Shown here: positions 24,955-32,595 of the stretch, in pieces
Numbering within the stretch: the stretch's first letter is position 1
Layout of the letters: the number at the start of each line of letters is the position of its first letter
DNA from: Megalodesulfovibrio gigas DSM 1382 = ATCC 19364
GTDB lineage: Bacteria; Desulfobacterota; Desulfovibrionia; Desulfovibrionales; Desulfovibrionaceae
Assembly: GCF_000468495.1 (NCBI RefSeq)
Contig: NC_022444.1
Span: 1,936,919-1,986,287, forward strand
DNA length: 49,369 bases
Direction of reading: 5' to 3'
Translations under genes and position numbers: made by a program
Notes under the pieces: model-generated
The model's database searches: none
What the model saw: only the letters and a program-made list of their open reading frames with translations
Told to the model about the DNA's origin: nothing

Positions 24955-27768
24955 CTACTGCAGCAGGAGGTACAGCGTCGGGACGATCGTCTCGGCGGCG
25001 CTGTCCGTGACGCCCTGCGGCAGGAAGACGAGGGCCTGATTGGCGCTGAGGCTGGCCTGATTGTATGAGTACTGCAGCCCCTCGCTGCCGTCGAGGTTCT
25101 CAATGCCCACGGTGGCGTTGCCGCCGCCGGTGTAGCTGCTGGTGGCAAAGGTGACGTTGGCGTACTGCATGGTGATTGTGCCGGTCCGCTCATCGAGAAC
25201 GACCTGGAAGGTGGCCGGCGCACTGGTGACGGATTCCCCGTAATGGCGAATGTTGCCCCAGGTGATGACCATGCGGGCATTGGGCGAGGCGCCCAGCTGC
25301 TGGGCCGTCACCCGGCCGCCCAGGGAGCTGGTCACGACCAGATCGTCCCAGAACGGGGCGATCATGGCATTGGGGTTCGCCGTGTTGGGGATGGCCGTGT
25401 TGCTGTAGTACGGGGAGGACGTGGTGAACGACAGGAAGCCGTTACTGCAGACGTACACCGAGGAATACACACCGTCGAAGAAGGGGAAGCTGAACCCGAG
25501 ATTCAGGGAGACAACGGTATCATCGCCAGAAGAGATGATGGTGGTGGCGGTGGAATCGTCCACCCAGTTGTAGGTGCCGGCCTGCATGACGTACGCGAAC
25601 GCCTGGTTTACGGTGCCGGAAACAGTTGCCGTTGCTGCGGTGTAGCCGCTTTTGGAGGCCCGGATGGTGATGGTCACGTTGCCGGCGGCGTTTGGTGTCC
25701 AGCTGCCGCCGTAGGTGCCGTCGTTGGCCACGCCGTCCTGGTGCGCGCCATCGTCGTACAGGGTGACGGCGGTCTGGCCTGTGCTGAACGTGGCCTGCAC
25801 CGTGCCGCCCGTCAGGGCGGTGCCGCATCCCGTGACCACTTGGGCAGTCAGTTGTTGCGCGGTATTGACGCGCGCCGTGAATTGCGCCGCGGGGGTGGTG
25901 ATGGCCACGGCCAGGGTGCTGTCGGTGCAGGAAAGTTTGAGCTGGGAGGCCGGGTCGCCCATCAGGTTGATTTCAAACCCCAGCCAGCGGTACACCCCGT
26001 CCGAATAGTTGAGGGACGCCTTGGACTGGTTGTTGGCAGGGCCAAGGCGGCGGATGGAGGACTGGAACACGGCTTCGGCAAAACGACGGTGCACCAGGTT
26101 GGAAGCGCCATTGTAAACCTGACCGAAATTATACCAGCCGTATCGTGAGTTCCCGATGTAGGCGAAGGCGTTCTTGGTGTTGCGGACCAGAAAATCTTCC
26201 CCGATGCTGTCGGAGGAGGAATAGGAGCCGACCGTGGTGGTGCGGCCGTCATAGGAATTGGAGTAGCAGCCCTGGCTGTAGATGAATTGGTATTTCGTGT
26301 TGGTGATGCTGTCGAGGTCCGAGTTGGACATCTTCATGTTGTACGTGACGTTCGAGTGCCCAAGGTGGAAGACGATGCTGTAGGCGTTGCCAGAGAGCAG
26401 GGAGATCAGTTCGCTTTTGGGCCAGTCGTTGGATGCTGCATCGCGGTCGTACAGCGTGTCCCGGGGCATGGCGTTCATGGCCTCGTACACGTAATCCATC
26501 TTGTCGCCGCCCCAGGTGGGGGTGCTGTCAAGATTTTCCCCCACCAGCAGGGCCTTGTATGGTGCGGATGCCGTGTCGTAGGCGATGATCTTGTTGATGG
26601 CGTTCTGCACTTCCTGGGTTGTGTCCGCGGGAATGCGGCCCACGGCCACTTCGGCCAGCCAGTCGATGTCGCCACCGCTTACGCCGTCGGTGGATTCACC
26701 GAAAATGTTGTCGTTGTCGTTGTCCCAGGTGCCGTCAAGGCAGGCATAGTAATAGTCCGTGGGGATATAACTGTCGGAGTAGGAGCCAACAGTGGCTGGG
26801 CAGCCCCGGGTGGGCACGGCCTGGGAGGCTTGCGGACCGTCCGCATCGCCGCCCAGCACCACATACTGCGTGCCGTAATTCGTGTAGCAGCCCTTGATGT
26901 AGTTGCGCATTTTTTCCGCCAGATCCCGCCCGCTCTGGCCGCTGGCGATGTCCTCCACTGTGGTGATGTACGTGGTGAACCCGCCGCCGGCGCTGGAGGC
27001 GCGGTGCGTGAGCAGGGGAGTGAAGGCGGACTTGAGGGCATTGGTGGTGATGACCAAAAACTGGCGGCTGCTGTCCAGCGGGAGGGCGTTTTTCTGGACG
27101 TCAAAAGGGACGGCGTCCCCGTTGTCGATCAGATTCAAAACGTCCTGCAGATCCGTGCCGCTGCGCCGGGGTTGCAAGTCTGTCGCCACGGCATTTTTTT
27201 GCACGGATGTATGCACGGTCACCTTGATGGAGGTGGCGTATTCCACAACGCCCGAAGCCGGAAGATACCGCACCGGCCTGAGCTCGGTGGTGACGATCCG
27301 ATAACCATGCAGGTGCTGATCCGACGCCCTGGCCCATGTCTGGCTGGGGTAGGGCTGGTTGCTGCCGTAAATGGTGGGGTTGGGCAGTGCCGCAGGCAGC
27401 GAGGTGTTGCCCATGCTCAATGGTTGCGGCGAAACGGCATGAGCCAGCGTATATGTGCCGGGCAACGCCTGCATTGCACCAAATGAGACTTCCACAGTGT
27501 CCACATGCTGGCCTGCAGGAACATACAATCGTGACAGCATGAGGGGCAGCATGGGCGCGCCAATGGTCTTGGTGTCCTGTTGTGTCCCTGGCAATTCCAC
27601 GATGGCTTTGCCGTCGGCACCGTATAGCACCGTCGGCTTTTGGATGGTATACGTATGGGTTATTGTTTCCGCAAATGCGTTTTGACCAAAAACAAGAGCG
27701 ACAACCAGCGCAATCCCGAGCATGACGCCATGCACACGAAAGGAGCGCAGCCTTGTCCGCATTGCCAT
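24955..27768 (-). CDS. Secreted gingipain-like C25 cysteine peptidase with surface domains
   Basis: A 937-residue exported protein. The signal peptide ends near residue 33 (FGQNAFA). A propeptide-like region (about 34-210) resembles the gingipain C25 propeptide. The catalytic C25 domain (about 215-610) has the His of FHLGHSN (His471, with His468 close by) and the nucleophile Cys501 in YSQGCYSN. An Ig-like beta domain follows (about 625-740, LYDDGAHQDGVANDGTYGGSWTP), then a nidogen-like C-terminal domain (about 745-920, APFWDDL, MVITWGN, FQVVLDERTGTITMQY). The ATG at 27768 follows a very strong GGAGGTGGGGGAA. A long leader with a good promoter lies upstream. The extreme C-terminus is SAAETIVPTLYLLLQ. 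Likely outer-surface or secreted; its role (nutrition, autoprocessing, host or prey interaction) is open. Confidence 0.88.
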   Translation of the reverse strand: MAMRTRLRSFRVHGVMLGIALVVALVFGQNAFAETITHTYTIQKPTVLYGADGKAIVELPGTQQDTKTIGAPMLPLMLSRLYVPAGQHVDTVEVSFGAMQALPGTYTLAHAVSPQPLSMGNTSLPAALPNPTIYGSNQPYPSQTWARASDQHLHGYRIVTTELRPVRYLPASGVVEYATSIKVTVHTSVQKNAVATDLQPRRSGTDLQDVLNLIDNGDAVPFDVQKNALPLDSSRQFLVITTNALKSAFTPLLTHRASSAGGGFTTYITTVEDIASGQSGRDLAEKMRNYIKGCYTNYGTQYVVLGGDADGPQASQAVPTRGCPATVGSYSDSYIPTDYYYACLDGTWDNDNDNIFGESTDGVSGGDIDWLAEVAVGRIPADTTQEVQNAINKIIAYDTASAPYKALLVGENLDSTPTWGGDKMDYVYEAMNAMPRDTLYDRDAASNDWPKSELISLLSGNAYSIVFHLGHSNVTYNMKMSNSDLDSITNTKYQFIYSQGCYSNSYDGRTTTVGSYSSSDSIGEDFLVRNTKNAFAYIGNSRYGWYNFGQVYNGASNLVHRRFAEAVFQSSIRRLGPANNQSKASLNYSDGVYRWLGFEINLMGDPASQLKLSCTDSTLAVAITTPAAQFTARVNTAQQLTAQVVTGCGTALTGGTVQATFSTGQTAVTLYDDGAHQDGVANDGTYGGSWTPNAAGNVTITIRASKSGYTAATATVSGTVNQAFAYVMQAGTYNWVDDSTATTIISSGDDTVVSLNLGFSFPFFDGVYSSVYVCSNGFLSFTTSSPYYSNTAIPNTANPNAMIAPFWDDLVVTSSLGGRVTAQQLGASPNARMVITWGNIRHYGESVTSAPATFQVVLDERTGTITMQYANVTFATSSYTGGGNATVGIENLDGSEGLQYSYNQASLSANQALVFLPQGVTDSAAETIVPTLYLLLQ

Positions 27769-28140
27769 TTCCCCCACCTCCGCGTTGTACACCTGCGTAA
27801 TTGAATGGCATCAATCCATGCATAACAATGGTTGCATGGAGAGTTGCATGCGTCTTGAAGCACCTGTTGAGTGCAGGCATGTGTGACTGCATGGGCAGTT
27901 CTTCAAGGAGATAAATATACCCCTTTTGTGAAGTAGGGTCAATTGCGTGCGGGATGATGCGTTGCCATGACGGCGTATTGCTTCAAGATTATTGCCAATG
28001 AAGCATGCATGCCATTGTGCGTGCAGCGTGTGATTGCTGCATCAAAGCAGAAAAAGGGCCCTGCTGCATGGGGGAGTGCACGTCGGCGCACGCCGGCGGC
28101 ACGGGCAATGCATTGCACGGCGTCCGGTTTCTGGCGCGGG
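27769..28140. other. Long leader of the C25 protease and gene-free gap
   Basis: About 372 nt without a gene. The part nearest the protease (27769 to about 27909) should be its 5' untranslated region of about 140 nt. On the mRNA strand it carries repeated CATGC words, including two CATGCAAC copies, CATGCAG and ATGCATGG. Beyond the promoter, 27950-28140 is rich in TGCAT/ATGCA words and short palindromes (GCATGCATGC, GTGCAATGCATTGC) but no reading frame that looks coding. Confidence 0.5.
27916..27944 (-). promoter_or_regulatory. Sigma70-type promoter for the C25 protease
   Basis: On the minus strand TTGACC (complement of 27939-27944) is followed, after exactly 17 nt, by TATATT (complement of 27916-27921). 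The predicted start of transcription is near 27909, giving a leader of about 140 nt before the protease ATG. The match and spacing are among the best in the window. Confidence 0.6.
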
Positions 28141-28401: not shown

Positions 28402-29142
28402 TCAATGCTGTTCGACTTGCAATCCGCGTGCCGGTTCTTGGTGCTGCCGCTGGGTCTTGCGGCCATGTTCCAGAATGCAGTCCAGAACCACGCCATGCTC
28501 GCGGGATGGCGCCAGGCCGAAGATGCGGTCTGCCTTGAGGGCGAACAGGTCCATAGGATGATGACTGATGACCAGCACTTGCAGTCCAAGCGCCTTGGCC
28601 GTGCGGGCCACGAGGTCCATGAACCGGGGCACCAGATCCGGCTTGAGCCAGCAGTCGCCTTCGTCCAGCACCAGGAAGGGCCGGTGTCGGGCCTGATCCA
28701 GCTGGGAGAGGGCGATAAGCCGCAGCCCGGCCGAAACAATGTTGCACACCGAGCCGCCCTGGCCGCGGCGGATGTCTTCCTCGCCCTCGGGGCTTTCGAT
28801 ATAGAATTCGATGGCCAGCCGGCCATCCTTGACGCTGCGCCGGGTGCGGGCCTGGCGTTCCTGGCCCAGAATCTCGCGGATGGCCTGGGTGAGCGTCGAT
28901 TCCACGTCGCCCAGCATTTCATCAAAGAGCCGGCGTGTCAGTTCGTCCAGCAGCTCCTGGGCGCGGGGGGCGACGTCCAGAAAGGCTTCCACCTCGGCAA
29001 CGGCCTGGCGTTGTTCGGCAAGCTGGGCATGGGCCTGGCCGGCGCGAGCCTCCAGGCGGTCCAGACGGCGGGAAAGCTCCCGCAGCTGCCGGGAAAGGGC
29101 CGTCAACTCTCCGGCAGAATCGGTATGGTCGGCCGGCGTCAT
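28402..29142 (-). CDS. Rad50/SbcC-like ATPase, C-terminal half (Walker B)
   Basis: A 246-residue protein with no Walker A. Residues 12-60 are coiled coil; then comes an ATPase C-lobe with the signature-like GQGGSVCNIVSAGLRLIALSQ (about 128-147), Walker B FLVLDEGD (156-163) followed by an LKPDL loop, and the H-loop VISHHP (191-196). This is the order of the C-terminal lobe of Rad50/SbcC/RecN-type ATPases. The matching N-lobe with Walker A is encoded three genes upstream (30404-31753), so the two probably assemble into one ATPase. The ATG at 29142 overlaps the stop of the coiled-coil gene (ATGA). A His/Gln-rich tail follows residue 225. It could load onto DNA ends with the Mre11-like partner. 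Confidence 0.82.
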   Translation of the reverse strand: MTPADHTDSAGELTALSRQLRELSRRLDRLEARAGQAHAQLAEQRQAVAEVEAFLDVAPRAQELLDELTRRLFDEMLGDVESTLTQAIREILGQERQARTRRSVKDGRLAIEFYIESPEGEEDIRRGQGGSVCNIVSAGLRLIALSQLDQARHRPFLVLDEGDCWLKPDLVPRFMDLVARTAKALGLQVLVISHHPMDLFALKADRIFGLAPSREHGVVLDCILEHGRKTQRQHQEPARGLQVEQH

Positions 29143-29453
29143 TCGGCAGATCCTGCCGCCTGCTCGGCGGCGGCCAGACCGGCCTGCACCCCGGCGATGT
29201 GTTCGCGGTAGGCGGCCACGCGGCGCTCGTTTTCCGCACGGCGTGCATCCAGGAGTTGCTGCAGGGCCTCGGGATCGCTGACGCCGTACTCCTCCAGGGC
29301 CTGTTTCTCCAGCGCCCCCAGCTGCTGTTCGATGCTGGCCAGTTGTTCTTCCGTGCGGACCTTGTCTTCCTTCAACTGCTCGAACTTGTTGCGCAACTTT
29401 CCGAGCTCCTGGTCCAGGGCCGTGTCACGGTCAGTCGTTTTGGGCGCCGCCAT
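29139..29453 (-). CDS. Short coiled-coil protein of the split Rad50/Mre11 operon
   Basis: A 104-residue charged protein, almost entirely coiled coil (about 8-50 and 62-95, LGKLRNKFEQLKEDKVRTEEQLASIEQQ), with a short break around EEYGVSDPEALQQLL. It has no catalytic motif, no cysteine and no membrane segment. The start at 29453 lies 23 nt inside the 3' end of the nuclease gene, and its TGA overlaps the start of the ATPase C-half gene, so it is made in step with them. A reasonable inference is that it bridges or extends the coiled-coil arms of the split ATPase. The family is not recognised. Confidence 0.78.
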   Translation of the reverse strand: MAAPKTTDRDTALDQELGKLRNKFEQLKEDKVRTEEQLASIEQQLGALEKQALEEYGVSDPEALQQLLDARRAENERRVAAYREHIAGVQAGLAAAEQAAGSAE

Positions 29454-30414
29454 GGATGATCTCCTCGTACAGGCTGAGAATGATTTGTGATTCCGGGAGG
29501 GTAGGGTCAAGATTGTCGCTGAGGAACTGCCCCAGGCCCGCGCCCTCGCGGGTGCGTTTCCAGACCAGCCGCTCCAGGCCCCTGAGGAACAGGGATTCCC
29601 CGCCTTCCTTGATCTGGGTGTCCGGGAACGGTTGATCGGGGAAGACGTCTTCAAAGGGCAGAAAGGGCACGTCCAGCCGTTCCAGCTCGGTCATGCCGGG
29701 ACGCCAGATGGCTGCGGCCGGGCGACGCTCCTTGACTCGCGGGGCAAAGCTCATGCGCGTCAGGCTGCCGAGGTTCACCCAGGTGGTCATGCCGCGGCGC
29801 TGGGGCGGCTGGGGCTGGTGCAGGTGGCCGTTGATCAGCCAATCCACACCCGGCAGCTCGCGCAGGGGCTGGCGCTGGTCTGCATAGTCTGGGAACCCCA
29901 GCCCGTGATGGGAGACCCAGAGCACGGTATCGGCCTCGTCGCGCTCCACGGCCTTGGGCAGGGGGGCCATGTCCGGCGATGCGCCCAGCAGGGCCACATG
30001 CCCGTCAATCAGGACGCGGCACTGCGGGCCGGCTTCCTTCATCACGTGGATCACGCCGGCGCTCTCCAGCACGGCCATGGAGACGTCGTCCGTGTAATTG
30101 GCCTGCCATTTGTCATGGTTGCCCACGAGCACCCAGCACTTGAGGGGGGTGGCGGCCAGGGGTTTGAACAGCTCGATGCAGCGCACCAGCAGGGTGTTTG
30201 GATTCTCCCGCGGCCAGTGGAAAAGATCGCCGCAGATGACCGGCAGCAGGTTGCGGGATGCGGCCTGCTCCAGACAAAAGGCCAGCTTGGCCAGGGTCTG
30301 TTCGGTGTAGCCGGGCAGGCGCTGCCCGGGCGGCGTGCCGGCCAGGTGGACATCCGTGCAAAACAGGATGCCTGCGCAGGCGATGGCGGGAAGATCGGCG
30401 CGTTCAATGTCCAT
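29431..30414 (-). CDS. Mre11/SbcD-like calcineurin-fold nuclease
   Basis: A 327-residue metallophosphoesterase. All metal-binding motifs are visible: TDVHLAG (Asp21, His23), CGDLFHW (Asp63), GNHDKW (Asn99, His100), VSHHG (His169/170) and NGHLHQPQ (His197, His199). The last third (from about 230) is probably a capping/ATPase-binding domain, though shorter than in SbcD. By analogy it should cut DNA ends or hairpins under control of the ATPase halves encoded on either side. The ATG at 30414 has GGAGGGCGGCC upstream and overlaps the ATPase N-half gene by 11 nt; longer in-frame starts are antisense artefacts. Other phosphatase functions cannot be excluded, but the context favours a DNA nuclease. 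Confidence 0.85.
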   Translation of the reverse strand: MDIERADLPAIACAGILFCTDVHLAGTPPGQRLPGYTEQTLAKLAFCLEQAASRNLLPVICGDLFHWPRENPNTLLVRCIELFKPLAATPLKCWVLVGNHDKWQANYTDDVSMAVLESAGVIHVMKEAGPQCRVLIDGHVALLGASPDMAPLPKAVERDEADTVLWVSHHGLGFPDYADQRQPLRELPGVDWLINGHLHQPQPPQRRGMTTWVNLGSLTRMSFAPRVKERRPAAAIWRPGMTELERLDVPFLPFEDVFPDQPFPDTQIKEGGESLFLRGLERLVWKRTREGAGLGQFLSDNLDPTLPESQIILSLYEEIIHGGAQND

Positions 30415-31753
30415 GGCCGCCCTCCAGAAATTCGTCCAGGGTGGCGCGGGAGAGGACCTGCCCGCAGGTGGGGCAGTGGCCGATGGCCTCCAACCGGGCG
30501 GCGACGGCCTCGCGTTGTGCCACCAGGGCCGATTCCGCCGCCTGCCGCCGCTGCCGGGCCTGTTCGCGTTGCACATTGAGGCGGCGCAGGGCCTGCAGCA
30601 TGGCCGCCAGGGGAGCCACCGGCTCCAGCACGGGCGGCGGGTTCAGGGTTTCCAGGGCATCCCCCCGGCCCCTGGCGGCTGCCTGCCGTTGCGCGAGATC
30701 ACGCCACTGCTGCAGCAGGGCGGCGGGTCGGGCTGCCTCGGCCAGTGCCGGCGGTTCGTCCAATGCCTGCAGCACGGTCTTGCGTCTCTCCAGACGGGTT
30801 GTCCGCATCGCCAGGGCCTGCCGATCCGCCAGATGGCGCGCCAGGGGCCGCACCGGCTCCAGCCCGGAGGGGCCGGCCAGGGGCTCCAGGACATGGCGAC
30901 GACCGAGGAGGGATTGCTGCGTGGCTGCCAGTTCGGCCCGGCGGGCCAGGTGCCGGAGCAGGCGATCCACCGGCTCCAGGGTCGGCGGAAGGTCCAGGGG
31001 CTCCAGGACAAGGCGGCGACGGGCCAGCAGTGCCCGGCGTTCCCGAAGCTGCCGCATTTGCGTTACGCACTGGGCCAGTCGCGGCAGGGCGGCGGCCAGG
31101 GCGGTCAGTTCGTGCTCCTCGGCTTCGGCGGCCTCCAGGGCCAGGGCGATATCCGGCAGCGCCGCCAGGCGATCCAGCATGCCGCGCTGGGCCTGCTGGG
31201 CAAGCTGCAGGGTCTGGCGATCCTTTTTGGCGTCCCGAATCTTGCTCTTCAACAGATCCTGCATGGCCAGCAGGTGCGCGCCCTCGCTGGAGGCGGCGAA
31301 AAAGTGGGCCACCTGGGCCGGGGGGCGGTCGATGAGAAAAATGGGCGTGCGTTGGTCGCTCAGGTGCACATCCACGCGATTCTTGTCGTCGATGTCCACG
31401 GGCTGGATCCGCAGCAGCTCCAGCACCTGCGGCGGGGCCTTGCCCTGGCCCATTTTATAGAAGGATTCCGGCTCCTGCCCTGGCCGCTCGATCTCGTACC
31501 AGGACGTGGTTTTCTTGCGATGCCAGCGCAGGAGGGTGCCGTCTTCCAGCTCCACGGCCACGGTGGCCTGCTTTTTTCCGTGCCGGATGAACGCCCGACC
31601 CAGGGCCGGATTTTCGCTCAGGCAGCGCAGGGCCTCCACCACGGCGGATTTGCCGGTGTTGTTGGGGCCGGTGAGCACGGTCACGCCCTCGGCCAGGGCG
31701 ATTTCGCTGTGGCCGTGGGCCATGAAGTTGTGGAGGATGATTTTTTTGATCAT
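30404..31753 (-). CDS. Rad50/SbcC-like ATPase, N-terminal half with zinc-hook motif
   Basis: A 449-residue protein. The N-lobe starts MIKKIILHNFMAHGHSEIAL, as in RecF/Rad50 (KKLxLxNFxxH), and has Walker A GPNNTGKS (29-36). After about residue 165 it becomes coiled coil. Residues 246-401 contain four tandem units of about 39 residues. Near the end stands the zinc-hook motif GHCPTCGQVL (Cys427, Cys430), and the protein stops 19 residues later. No signature motif or Walker B is present; these are in the separate gene at 28402-29142. The gene is thus cut exactly where a normal SbcC would turn back at its hook. The start ATG overlaps the methyltransferase stop (ATGA). Its stop overlaps the nuclease start. 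Confidence 0.85.
   Translation of the reverse strand: MIKKIILHNFMAHGHSEIALAEGVTVLTGPNNTGKSAVVEALRCLSENPALGRAFIRHGKKQATVAVELEDGTLLRWHRKKTTSWYEIERPGQEPESFYKMGQGKAPPQVLELLRIQPVDIDDKNRVDVHLSDQRTPIFLIDRPPAQVAHFFAASSEGAHLLAMQDLLKSKIRDAKKDRQTLQLAQQAQRGMLDRLAALPDIALALEAAEAEEHELTALAAALPRLAQCVTQMRQLRERRALLARRRLVLEPLDLPPTLEPVDRLLRHLARRAELAATQQSLLGRRHVLEPLAGPSGLEPVRPLARHLADRQALAMRTTRLERRKTVLQALDEPPALAEAARPAALLQQWRDLAQRQAAARGRGDALETLNPPPVLEPVAPLAAMLQALRRLNVQREQARQRRQAAESALVAQREAVAARLEAIGHCPTCGQVLSRATLDEFLEGGHGH
30551..31018 (-). repeat. Four tandem ~39-codon units inside the ATPase N-half
   Basis: Coding repeat, residues 246-284, 285-322, 323-362 and 363-401. Each unit starts with Arg-Arg or Arg-Gly and follows the pattern RR-x-VLEPL-x3-P-x-LEPV-x2-L-x-HL, then a charged helix. 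Units 1 and 2 are most alike (RRLVLEPL and RRHVLEPL); unit 4 keeps LEPVAPL. The Pro pairs would break the coiled coil at regular steps. Confidence 0.75.
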
Positions 31754-32532
31754 GACGAGACAGTCCCGCCTGCGTTGCAGGCCAGCCAGGGGCACAGCGC
31801 CAGGGCGGCGGCGGAGAGCGGCGCACGTGCGCCCGGCAGCGGCGCCGGGGCCGGCGCATCATCGTACAAAAAGAGCGGCGGTTCAATGGCCAGCTCCTGC
31901 CCGGCGTGCTTGCGCGCCTCCAGCAGCAGCAGTTTGGCCGGACGATCCGGCCGGGGATGCACGCAGCGCAGCCGTTTGGGCTCCAGCCCGGCAGCGCGGC
32001 AGACGGCGATCACCTCGGCCAGGGCATCGGCCCGATGCACCAGGCAACAGCGGCCGCGCACCGGCAGGGCATGGGCGGCCAGGGTCAGAAAATCCGCCAG
32101 GGACGAGCCATCCTCGTGAAACCGGGCGGCCTGCCGTTGCGGCTGCGCCGGCTGTCCGGATCCCGGCGTCCGCCAGGGCGGATTGCAGACCACCAGCCCG
32201 AAGCCGGCGGCAGGCAGCGTCGTCCTGGCTTCGCGCACATCCGCCGCCACAAATCCGGCGCGTTCTGCCAGTGCCAGCCGGCGGGCGTTCTCCCGGGCGC
32301 AGGCGAGCATGTCCGGATCAATATCCAGGCCCAGGAGCGTGGCGGCCTCGTCCAACAGCAGCAGGCCCAGGCCGATGACGCCCGACCCGCAGCCGAGGTC
32401 CAGGATGCGCCCGCCGGGCCGCAGCCCCTGCGCTGCCCAGGCAGCCAGGAGCAGGGAATCCACGGCAAAGCGGAAGCCCTGCGCCGGCTGGGCCAGGCCG
32501 CGGGGAAACAGGCGGGCCGGCTGCTCGATCAT
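31750..32532 (-). CDS. TrmN6-like SAM-dependent N6-adenine methyltransferase
   Basis: A 260-residue class I methyltransferase. Motif I is LDLGCGSGVIGLG (44-56), the acidic loop is LGLDIDPDML, and the catalytic NPPW (117-120) followed by RTPGSGQ marks an N6-adenine amino-methyltransferase of the TrmN6/YfiC type, which modifies A37 of tRNA1(Val). DNA methylation is an alternative because NPPY/NPPW is shared with DNA enzymes. A Pro/Ala-rich C-terminal tail extends beyond the core. The ATG at 32532 has AGGA 5 nt upstream (a TTG at 32580 is less likely). Its TGA overlaps the start of the split ATPase gene, making it the first gene of the five-gene operon. Whether it belongs functionally to that system is unknown. 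Confidence 0.82.
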   Translation of the reverse strand: MIEQPARLFPRGLAQPAQGFRFAVDSLLLAAWAAQGLRPGGRILDLGCGSGVIGLGLLLLDEAATLLGLDIDPDMLACARENARRLALAERAGFVAADVREARTTLPAAGFGLVVCNPPWRTPGSGQPAQPQRQAARFHEDGSSLADFLTLAAHALPVRGRCCLVHRADALAEVIAVCRAAGLEPKRLRCVHPRPDRPAKLLLLEARKHAGQELAIEPPLFLYDDAPAPAPLPGARAPLSAAALALCPWLACNAGGTVSS

Positions 32533-32595
32533 ACGTTCCTGCGGATGCGGGAGGCCTGCCGGGTGGCAGGCCTCTTTCAATGCAATGGCAGCAGG

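Follow-up and report, generated by a model that had tools for sequence, protein, structure and literature searches.

An Mre11-Rad50-type gene set in Megalodesulfovibrio gigas that probably encodes a Rad50 naturally split at its zinc hook

How the zinc hook and coiled coil of Rad50 communicate with its adenosine triphosphatase (ATPase) head is an old question. The related YhaN/YhaO-type pair presumably consists of an AAA_27 ATPase and an SbcD-like nuclease, and matches of these two types were seen as neighbours in the genomes searched. Ordinary Rad50, as laid out in PMC4494100, is one chain with a coil that folds back on itself. A different layout is found in a stretch of 49,369 nucleotides from Megalodesulfovibrio gigas DSM 1382 = ATCC 19364 (contig NC_022444.1, positions 1,936,919 to 1,986,287 of the forward strand), here called the window. 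One Rad50-type ATPase lobe is encoded there by a gene designated N and the other by a gene designated C, three genes downstream, with M, specifying an Mre11/SbcD-like metallophosphoesterase, and K, specifying a short helical-looking protein, in between. It is likely that these genes specify a DNA-end-processing complex of the Mre11-Rad50 type, whose assembly and activity we infer, with at least four separate polypeptides and a naturally split Rad50.

An SMC-type ATPase split at its zinc hook, with a nuclease between the halves, had been proposed in an initial annotation of the window, and this is borne out by the sequence, with which the motifs, the hook position and the overlaps agree. Walker A and a CPTC motif followed by a 19-residue tail are present in N, as are Walker B and the H-loop in C, just as had been claimed. 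The junctions, given as ATGA or 11-23 nucleotides (nt), measure 11 nt for N/M, 23 nt for M/K and 4 nt (ATGA) for K/C. Because both the gene order and the position of the hook are conserved in distant relatives, the arrangement is not due to chance.

N scores above the Pfam AAA_23 cut-off, and its profile matches lobe I of Rad50 among other SMC-type heads; its C-terminal end separately matches the Rad50 zinc hooks 6zff_A (E 1.9e-4) and 1l8d_A (E 5.9e-4). Walker A residues G29, N31, N32, G34, K35 and S36 are invariant across the 56 rows of an alignment (A5) of the window protein with 55 of 66 N proteins, from which nine truncated proteins, L169 and L170 were omitted, and a CxxC motif lies within the last 60 residues of all 66. 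Such a motif at the tip of an arm is a feature of Mre11-Rad50, and its sequence marks it as a putative zinc-binding hook. In the structural model of N (mean predicted local distance difference test, pLDDT, 81.3; predicted template modelling score, pTM, 0.39), lobe I is followed by a row of helices, and residues 1-143 align with residues 2-149 of Pyrococcus furiosus Rad50 (1f2u_A, Z 10.7, root-mean-square deviation, rmsd, 3.1, 131 aligned). The model of C (mean pLDDT 86.7) has a helix at residues 8-92 and then lobe II, and its residues 70-224 align with residues 738-882 of the same protein (1f2u_B, Z 12.1, rmsd 2.9, 142 aligned). The two models cover complementary halves of the Rad50 head. Both lobes of a Rad50-type head are present, one with Walker A and the other with the signature and Walker B, but they are spread over two chains.

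The profile of C matches SMC, Rad50 and other ATP-binding cassette (ABC) chains, and a three-row profile of phage C proteins ranks the Rad50 C-lobes first (3qkr_B, E 9.7e-10). Walker B residues D160 and E161 are invariant in an alignment (A6) of the window protein with 57 of 80 C proteins. Up to E 1, C has no Pfam match to SbcC_Walker_B (PF13558). By fold, its three top-ranking BFVD hits are stand-alone viral proteins of 193-219 residues. M lies above the Pfam Metallophos cut-off, and the first solved match of its profile is the Thermotoga maritima SbcD/Mre11 chain 4o24_A (E 4.5e-8), followed by other Mre11/SbcD chains and a few other phosphoesterases. The metal motifs DxH, GD, GNHD, H and GHxH are kept in the rows of M, with some changes in the row from a Microcystis phage (the M sequence entered the alignments without its initial Met). 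By its motifs, M is a putative nuclease of the calcineurin-fold Mre11/SbcD type.

The set recurs well beyond the window. Among 149 genomes searched nearby, C has a match at E 1e-3 in 41 and a strong match (5e-46 or better) in 34, all of which belong to the window's family, its own genome included; N is strong in 33 of the 34. Stretches from the 33 other genomes hold N, M and C in order in 29 cases, with K above threshold in 28 of these, and C alone in 4. In some genomes, C lies apart from the rest: N-M-K and C are inside two different contigs (G031), on opposite strands about 6 kilobases (kb) from each other (G057), or represented by C inside a contig without the others and by a partial N with M and K at a contig edge elsewhere (G006). 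An unlinked C in G041 (L132) was withdrawn, since N-M-K runs up to one contig edge and C to another, and a break of the contig between K and C can explain their separation.

A more distant scan used one genome per species, and the best 80 of 117 relatives of C were kept. The record titles name Desulfovibrionales, Syntrophobacteraceae, Desulfobacca, Desulfobacterales, many Planctomycetota, two Bacillota or Clostridiales metagenome-assembled genomes (MAGs) and one Parachlamydiaceae MAG; by these titles, the 80 loci fall into Desulfobacterota, Planctomycetota, Bacillota and Chlamydiota, with the reservation that contigs can be wrongly assigned to a MAG. The order N-M-K-C is found in 65 of these best 80 loci. 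The other 15 comprise six M-K-C loci and one K-C locus that start at a contig edge, one that is frameshifted (L181, K under threshold) and seven with C alone. Two of the seven, L132 and L185, are at a contig edge, and five (L133, L144, L148, L149, L154) have at least 3 kb upstream without the other genes; N is present elsewhere in the genomes of L132, L144 and L148, and a partial N in that of L133. Across 55 of the 65 N-M-K-C loci plus the window, the pairwise distances are correlated among all four proteins, N being represented by its first 165 residues (r 0.83-0.93, 0 of 500 permutations for each pair), and r is 0.88 for N and C. Within the fetched loci (126 N, 127 M, 101 K and 115 C matches), no frame carries two of the four proteins; an intact single-chain SbcC of like sequence, named beforehand as the finding that would overturn a split, was thus not encountered among the scanned frames.

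A search for the same four-gene order in Desulfovibrionales and phages had been recommended, and the set recurs in both. With its spread over several bacterial phyla and phages, the cut gives the impression of a functional design of long standing, as opposed to a damaged gene. Of the two natures offered in the initial annotation, the one that finds support is a natural split of an SbcCD-like machine: the kept gene order, the unlinked C, the complementary Rad50-head folds, the SbcD/Mre11-like nuclease and the lack of an SbcD match at E 1e-3 in the window's own genome all speak for it.

In phages, the components are recognizable in several arrangements. Bacillus phage vB_BboS-125 has N (gp32), an AP2-domain gene, K (gp34) and C (gp35), plus an M frame, and a Holliday junction resolvase gene lies near the set; in the public record of this phage, the M frame (L046:8250-9230) carries no annotated gene. 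A viral scan with this C yielded 27 contigs, one of them that phage, and all 27 hold N-K-C-M in order, with a CPLC or CPTC close to the end of N and a short tail after the hook. In Microcystis phage Mvi-JY20, the bacterial order is kept, with N, an M-like gene, a 94-residue gene and C, and the hook is CSQC. No relatives were found in viral scans with the bacterial C alignment, the Microcystis phage C or the Tunturiibacter phage C, and the stretch from Microbacterium phage Magritte yielded an N-like gene that lacks a hook and nothing else of the set. The C-like ATPase (L047:4785-5525) of Tunturiibacter phage Tunturi_5 has DNA replication genes in its vicinity, and no N turned up in the stretch examined. 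PHROG 16465 (exonuclease) matches N residues 2-232, and PHROG 15167 (ATPase) matches C residues 14-196; the main text of PMC6375668, on vB_BboS-125 and others, does not contain the term SbcC. The split set suggests what phage genes may do whose annotation says no more than exonuclease, ATPase or hypothetical.

The arm of N differs in length among relatives by regular steps. From F139 to the first hook Cys, it measures 249, 288, 327, 366 or 405 residues in 43 of 56 N proteins, the window protein included, and the remaining 13 lie from 5 below to 8 above one of those five lengths; the period score is 0.93 at 39-39.5 residues, compared with at most 0.48 in 2000 uniform draws. In the window, the N gene contains internal DNA copies spaced 234 and 117 nt, and in the model the arm helices begin at residues 263, 302, 341 and 380, which are 39 apart. 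The lengths of K and C are independent of arm length (r -0.10 and 0.17, respectively, over 54 loci). That the arm varies in 39-residue steps, whereas K and C do not, is new here. Modules would thus be added without a returning partner of equal length, and the arm would be self-sufficient, perhaps through the pairing of one N chain with another. A zigzag arm of antiparallel helices is less likely, because odd and even module counts both occur and this would reverse the direction of the hook; the model of N, with its low pTM and weak linkers, leaves the zigzag question undecided.

The signature of C is also altered. Across the 80 C proteins, the site reads GQGGS in 76, GTGGS in 3 (L172, L177, L185) and GCGGS in 1 (L183); the place of the ABC signature serine is taken by Gly in the phage C profile alignment and by Gln in the other register. 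The canonical serine-bearing signature of Mre11-Rad50 was not found in the C proteins, and a serine-free ABC signature is new here. According to PMC7247530, the change S793R in P. furiosus Rad50 prevents ATP binding. Arg141 of C, which on our reading corresponds to Rad50 Arg805, is invariant both in A6 and in a 32-row alignment (A1) that omits the C proteins of L050, L052, L061, L063 and L082.

K lies between N and C in the gene order wherever the set is together, in bacteria and in phages. Because this is where the descending coil lies in the Rad50 chain, K is probably a detached remnant of that coil, or a substitute for it, that braces the base of the arm. A more specific proposal, which we regard as about evenly balanced, is a natural Rad50 in three pieces (N, K and C) that has given up the fold-back coil and has its hook near a free C-terminus, a tether whose reach is set by modules, no matching returning strand and a serine-free signature.

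Whether the usual pairs are present alongside the split set was asked in several groups of genomes. A separate intact sbcC/sbcD in the window's own genome, which the initial annotation had wanted looked for, did not appear, there being no match at E 1e-3 to SbcD, SbcC_Walker_B or AAA_27. This genome has 15 AAA_23 matches, and those inspected besides N (the eight weakest, L038-L045, were left out) are RecN-like, OLD-like, ABC-transporter-like or UvrA-like by motif. In the window's family, an SbcD-like match (E 1e-6) occurs in 0 of 34 genomes with the set versus 47 of 55 without it, YhaN-type AAA_27 (E below 1e-9) in 0 of 34 versus 36 of 55, either of the two in 0 of 34 versus 48 of 55, and SbcD above cut-off in 0 of 34 versus 16 of 55, counts that come from sets compiled by hand and are uncorrected for phylogeny, so that with related genomes their p values overstate the case. 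In a Planctomycetota-class sample (198 genomes around G164, 20 of them with strong C, counted by hand), an SbcD-like match at E 1e-6 or better occurs in 2 of 20 with C versus 145 of 178 without (p 2e-10).

A number of observations weigh against a split Mre11-Rad50 machine, or against its standing in for the usual one. SMC and RecF heads score as well as Rad50 against the model of N, and for this reason the fold alone does not point to Rad50; the hook and the nuclease do. M on its own reaches 17.3 bits, compared with a curated SbcD cut-off of 77.65, and the matches of K are of the coiled-coil type only, as for any coiled coil. With the signature serine missing, ATP-driven closure of the head may differ in its chemistry. 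No strong N was detected in the genomes of L149, L154 and L185. In the window's family, weaker SbcD-like matches (2e-6 to 4e-5) occur in 4 of the 34 genomes with the set, and weak SbcC_Walker_B matches (9e-5 to 9e-4) in 5 of the 34, three of which counted above cut-off with their neighbours. Among 36 other host genomes, hand-picked from the 80 loci, YhaN-type AAA_27 below 1e-9 is present in 17 and a weak SbcD-like match (1e-3) in 23, with none above the SbcD cut-off. SbcD above cut-off in the Planctomycetota-class sample (1 of 20 with C versus 36 of 178 without) gives no significant difference (Fisher p 0.13), and the exclusion is partial in this sample. The idea that the split set generally replaces other Mre11-Rad50-type pairs therefore fails, since 17 of 36 other hosts carry a YhaN-type match. 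Instead, it probably takes over from the usual pairs in the window's family and acts alongside some of them in other groups. It is a repair-nuclease candidate for a group of sulfate reducers that yielded no SbcD-like or YhaN-type genes.

Other explanations have to be set against this one. The set may be a phage recombination module taken up by bacteria, with its main evolutionary home in phage genome replication and end processing. The 27 viral contigs with all four genes (one a copy of vB_BboS-125), the bacterial gene order in Mvi-JY20 and the Holliday junction resolvase gene near the vB_BboS-125 set speak for such an origin, which we nonetheless think rather unlikely given bacterial copies in several phyla; moreover, it concerns origin more than mechanism and is compatible with a split Mre11-Rad50. 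A defence complex, the second possibility in the initial annotation, fares worse; it would be an ATPase-nuclease system similar to Lamassu, OLD/Gabija or MADS and would sense the DNA ends of phages. In PADLOC, N matches LmuB (E 9e-10) and GajA models, and C matches the MADS ATPase model mad3 (E 7e-10), but the matches of N and C are weak or generic, most of those of N cover only the Walker A region common to SMC-like ATPases, and M has none. The neighbours that recur upstream are MurJ, MutM and TrmN-like genes, in Desulfovibrio-type loci, in a survey that included no search aimed at defence islands. A defence role is improbable, and this half of the earlier alternative found little support.

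It is equally doubtful that N and C never form one head and work in separate assemblies, resembling a cut Rad50 by ancestry only. This would suit the altered signature, the genomes in which C lies apart from N-M-K and the C of Tunturi_5 without N in the stretch examined, but Walker A is in N and Walker B in C, both invariant in the alignments, and the distances of the two proteins are correlated as described above. Finally, a frameshifted or misassembled single-chain SbcC was rejected and is given almost no credence. Nothing in the window speaks for it, although one relative copy, mentioned below, is itself frameshifted; against it stand the recurrence of the break across several phyla, the presence of M and K between the halves, the different order in phages, the location of C elsewhere in some genomes and the lack of any scanned frame holding two of the four.

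Taken together, these results favour the split Mre11-Rad50 machine, for which the following model can be drawn. N would supply lobe I and the arm ending in the zinc hook, and C would supply the signature, Walker B, the H-loop and a long helix; when N and C meet, they would make one ATPase head. Two heads together with M may then form a clamp on ATP and DNA ends, in which ATP would open or close access to the predicted nuclease. The arm, built of 39-residue modules present only in N, could lengthen or shorten by entire modules while C and K stay as they are, and would present the hook for a zinc-mediated joining of two complexes, while K would brace its base. The most likely cellular role is the chromosomal work of SbcCD or YhaNO, namely, opening blocked or hairpin DNA ends and resecting breaks. 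If the three-piece Rad50 proves true, an Mre11-Rad50 machine can do without an unbroken chain across the hook and without a long paired coil, and the design is old enough for several phyla and phages. A natural version that is cut at the hook and has a modular arm makes the question of how hook and coil act on the head directly testable: the arm can be varied by 39-residue units, the subunits omitted singly and the head assembled from two proteins.

The features of the locus are collected in Table 1. The upstream TrmN-like methyltransferase frame overlaps N by 4 nt (ATGA) and is probably a neighbour and not a member of the complex. Upstream frames recurring in at least 6 of the 80 loci include MurJ (14 loci), MutM (10) and a TrmN-like homologue (16, at 76 to about 2400 nt from N), with one representative each of MurJ and MutM confirmed by Pfam. 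This looks like a housekeeping setting, in Desulfovibrio-type loci at least.

Table 1. Positions of the genes and sequence features within the window
Feature	Position	Strand	Basis or remark
N subunit: Rad50-type ATPase lobe I, helical arm, C-terminal zinc hook	30404-31753	(-)	449 aa; AAA_23 above cut-off, fold match
M subunit: Mre11/SbcD-like metallophosphoesterase	29431-30414	(-)	327 aa from ATG; Metallophos match, SbcD/Mre11 profile match
K subunit: short helical-looking protein, conserved fourth component	29139-29453	(-)	104 aa
C subunit: long helix, then Rad50-type ATPase lobe II	28402-29142	(-)	246 aa; fold match
Walker A GPNNTGKS, N residues 29-36	31646-31669	(-)	sequence motif
Tandem 39-residue modules of the N arm, four units, residues about 252-407	30533-31000	(-)	DNA copies, helix starts in model
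Zinc hook CPTC, N residues 427-430, 19 residues before C-terminus	30464-30475	(-)	motif, match to Rad50 hooks
Altered ABC signature GQGGS, C residues 127-131, no serine at usual serine place	28750-28764	(-)	alignments
Walker B FLVLDEGD, C residues 156-163	28654-28677	(-)	D160 and E161 invariant
H-loop, C residue H194	within C	(-)	sequence motif
TrmN-like methyltransferase gene, upstream	31750-32580	(-)	adjoins N with ATGA overlap

Further observations concern single loci. One relative copy (L181/L082) has M, K and C frameshifted and N open, through decay or poor sequence. A frame for an Rce1-like (CPBP) membrane protease lies between K and C in L122 (Pfam match), similar frames, named by motif, are at the same place in L054, L055 and L080, and the frame found there in L062 and L069, about 690 residues long, carries a motif like that of RNB ribonucleases and is likewise named by motif. 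Elsewhere in the window, a 945-residue frame at 24955-27792 (-) contains a Peptidase_C25 (gingipain family) domain and a nidogen-like domain.

Compared with known systems, the set is closest to SbcCD/Mre11-Rad50, with which it shares Rad50-type ATPase lobes, an adjoining Mre11/SbcD-like nuclease gene and a CxxC hook tipping a helical arm. It differs in that the Rad50 chain is cut at the hook into separate genes, a further subunit K is present, the 39-residue arm modules have no equally long returning coil, the signature is GQGGS and, in bacteria, the nuclease gene lies between the halves. The lobes are in separate frames here and not in one fold-back chain, the layout given in PMC4494100. The YhaN/YhaO-type pair likewise combines an ATPase with a calcineurin-fold nuclease and is present in many family members without the split set; however, strong AAA_27 matches are mostly in single frames of about 1000 residues or more. 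PHROG 16465 and 15167 match N and C, and the N and C genes of vB_BboS-125 bear these two names, but they are two separate families, and the viral order is N-K-C-M with a short tail after the hook. In the P. furiosus Rad50 crystals 1f2t and 1f2u, the lobes are separate chains that match C and N, in what we take to be a laboratory construct and not a natural split. MADS mad3 and Lamassu LmuB show weak profile similarity to the ATPase lobes; N and C are matched by opposite ends of the mad3 model, which therefore represents a single chain, and both systems presumably have other partner genes than those found here. No description of a naturally split Rad50 or SbcC was found in the open-licence PMC literature, preprints excluded, where absence is a weak sign. 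Its components, taken singly, belong to a machine that is already known.

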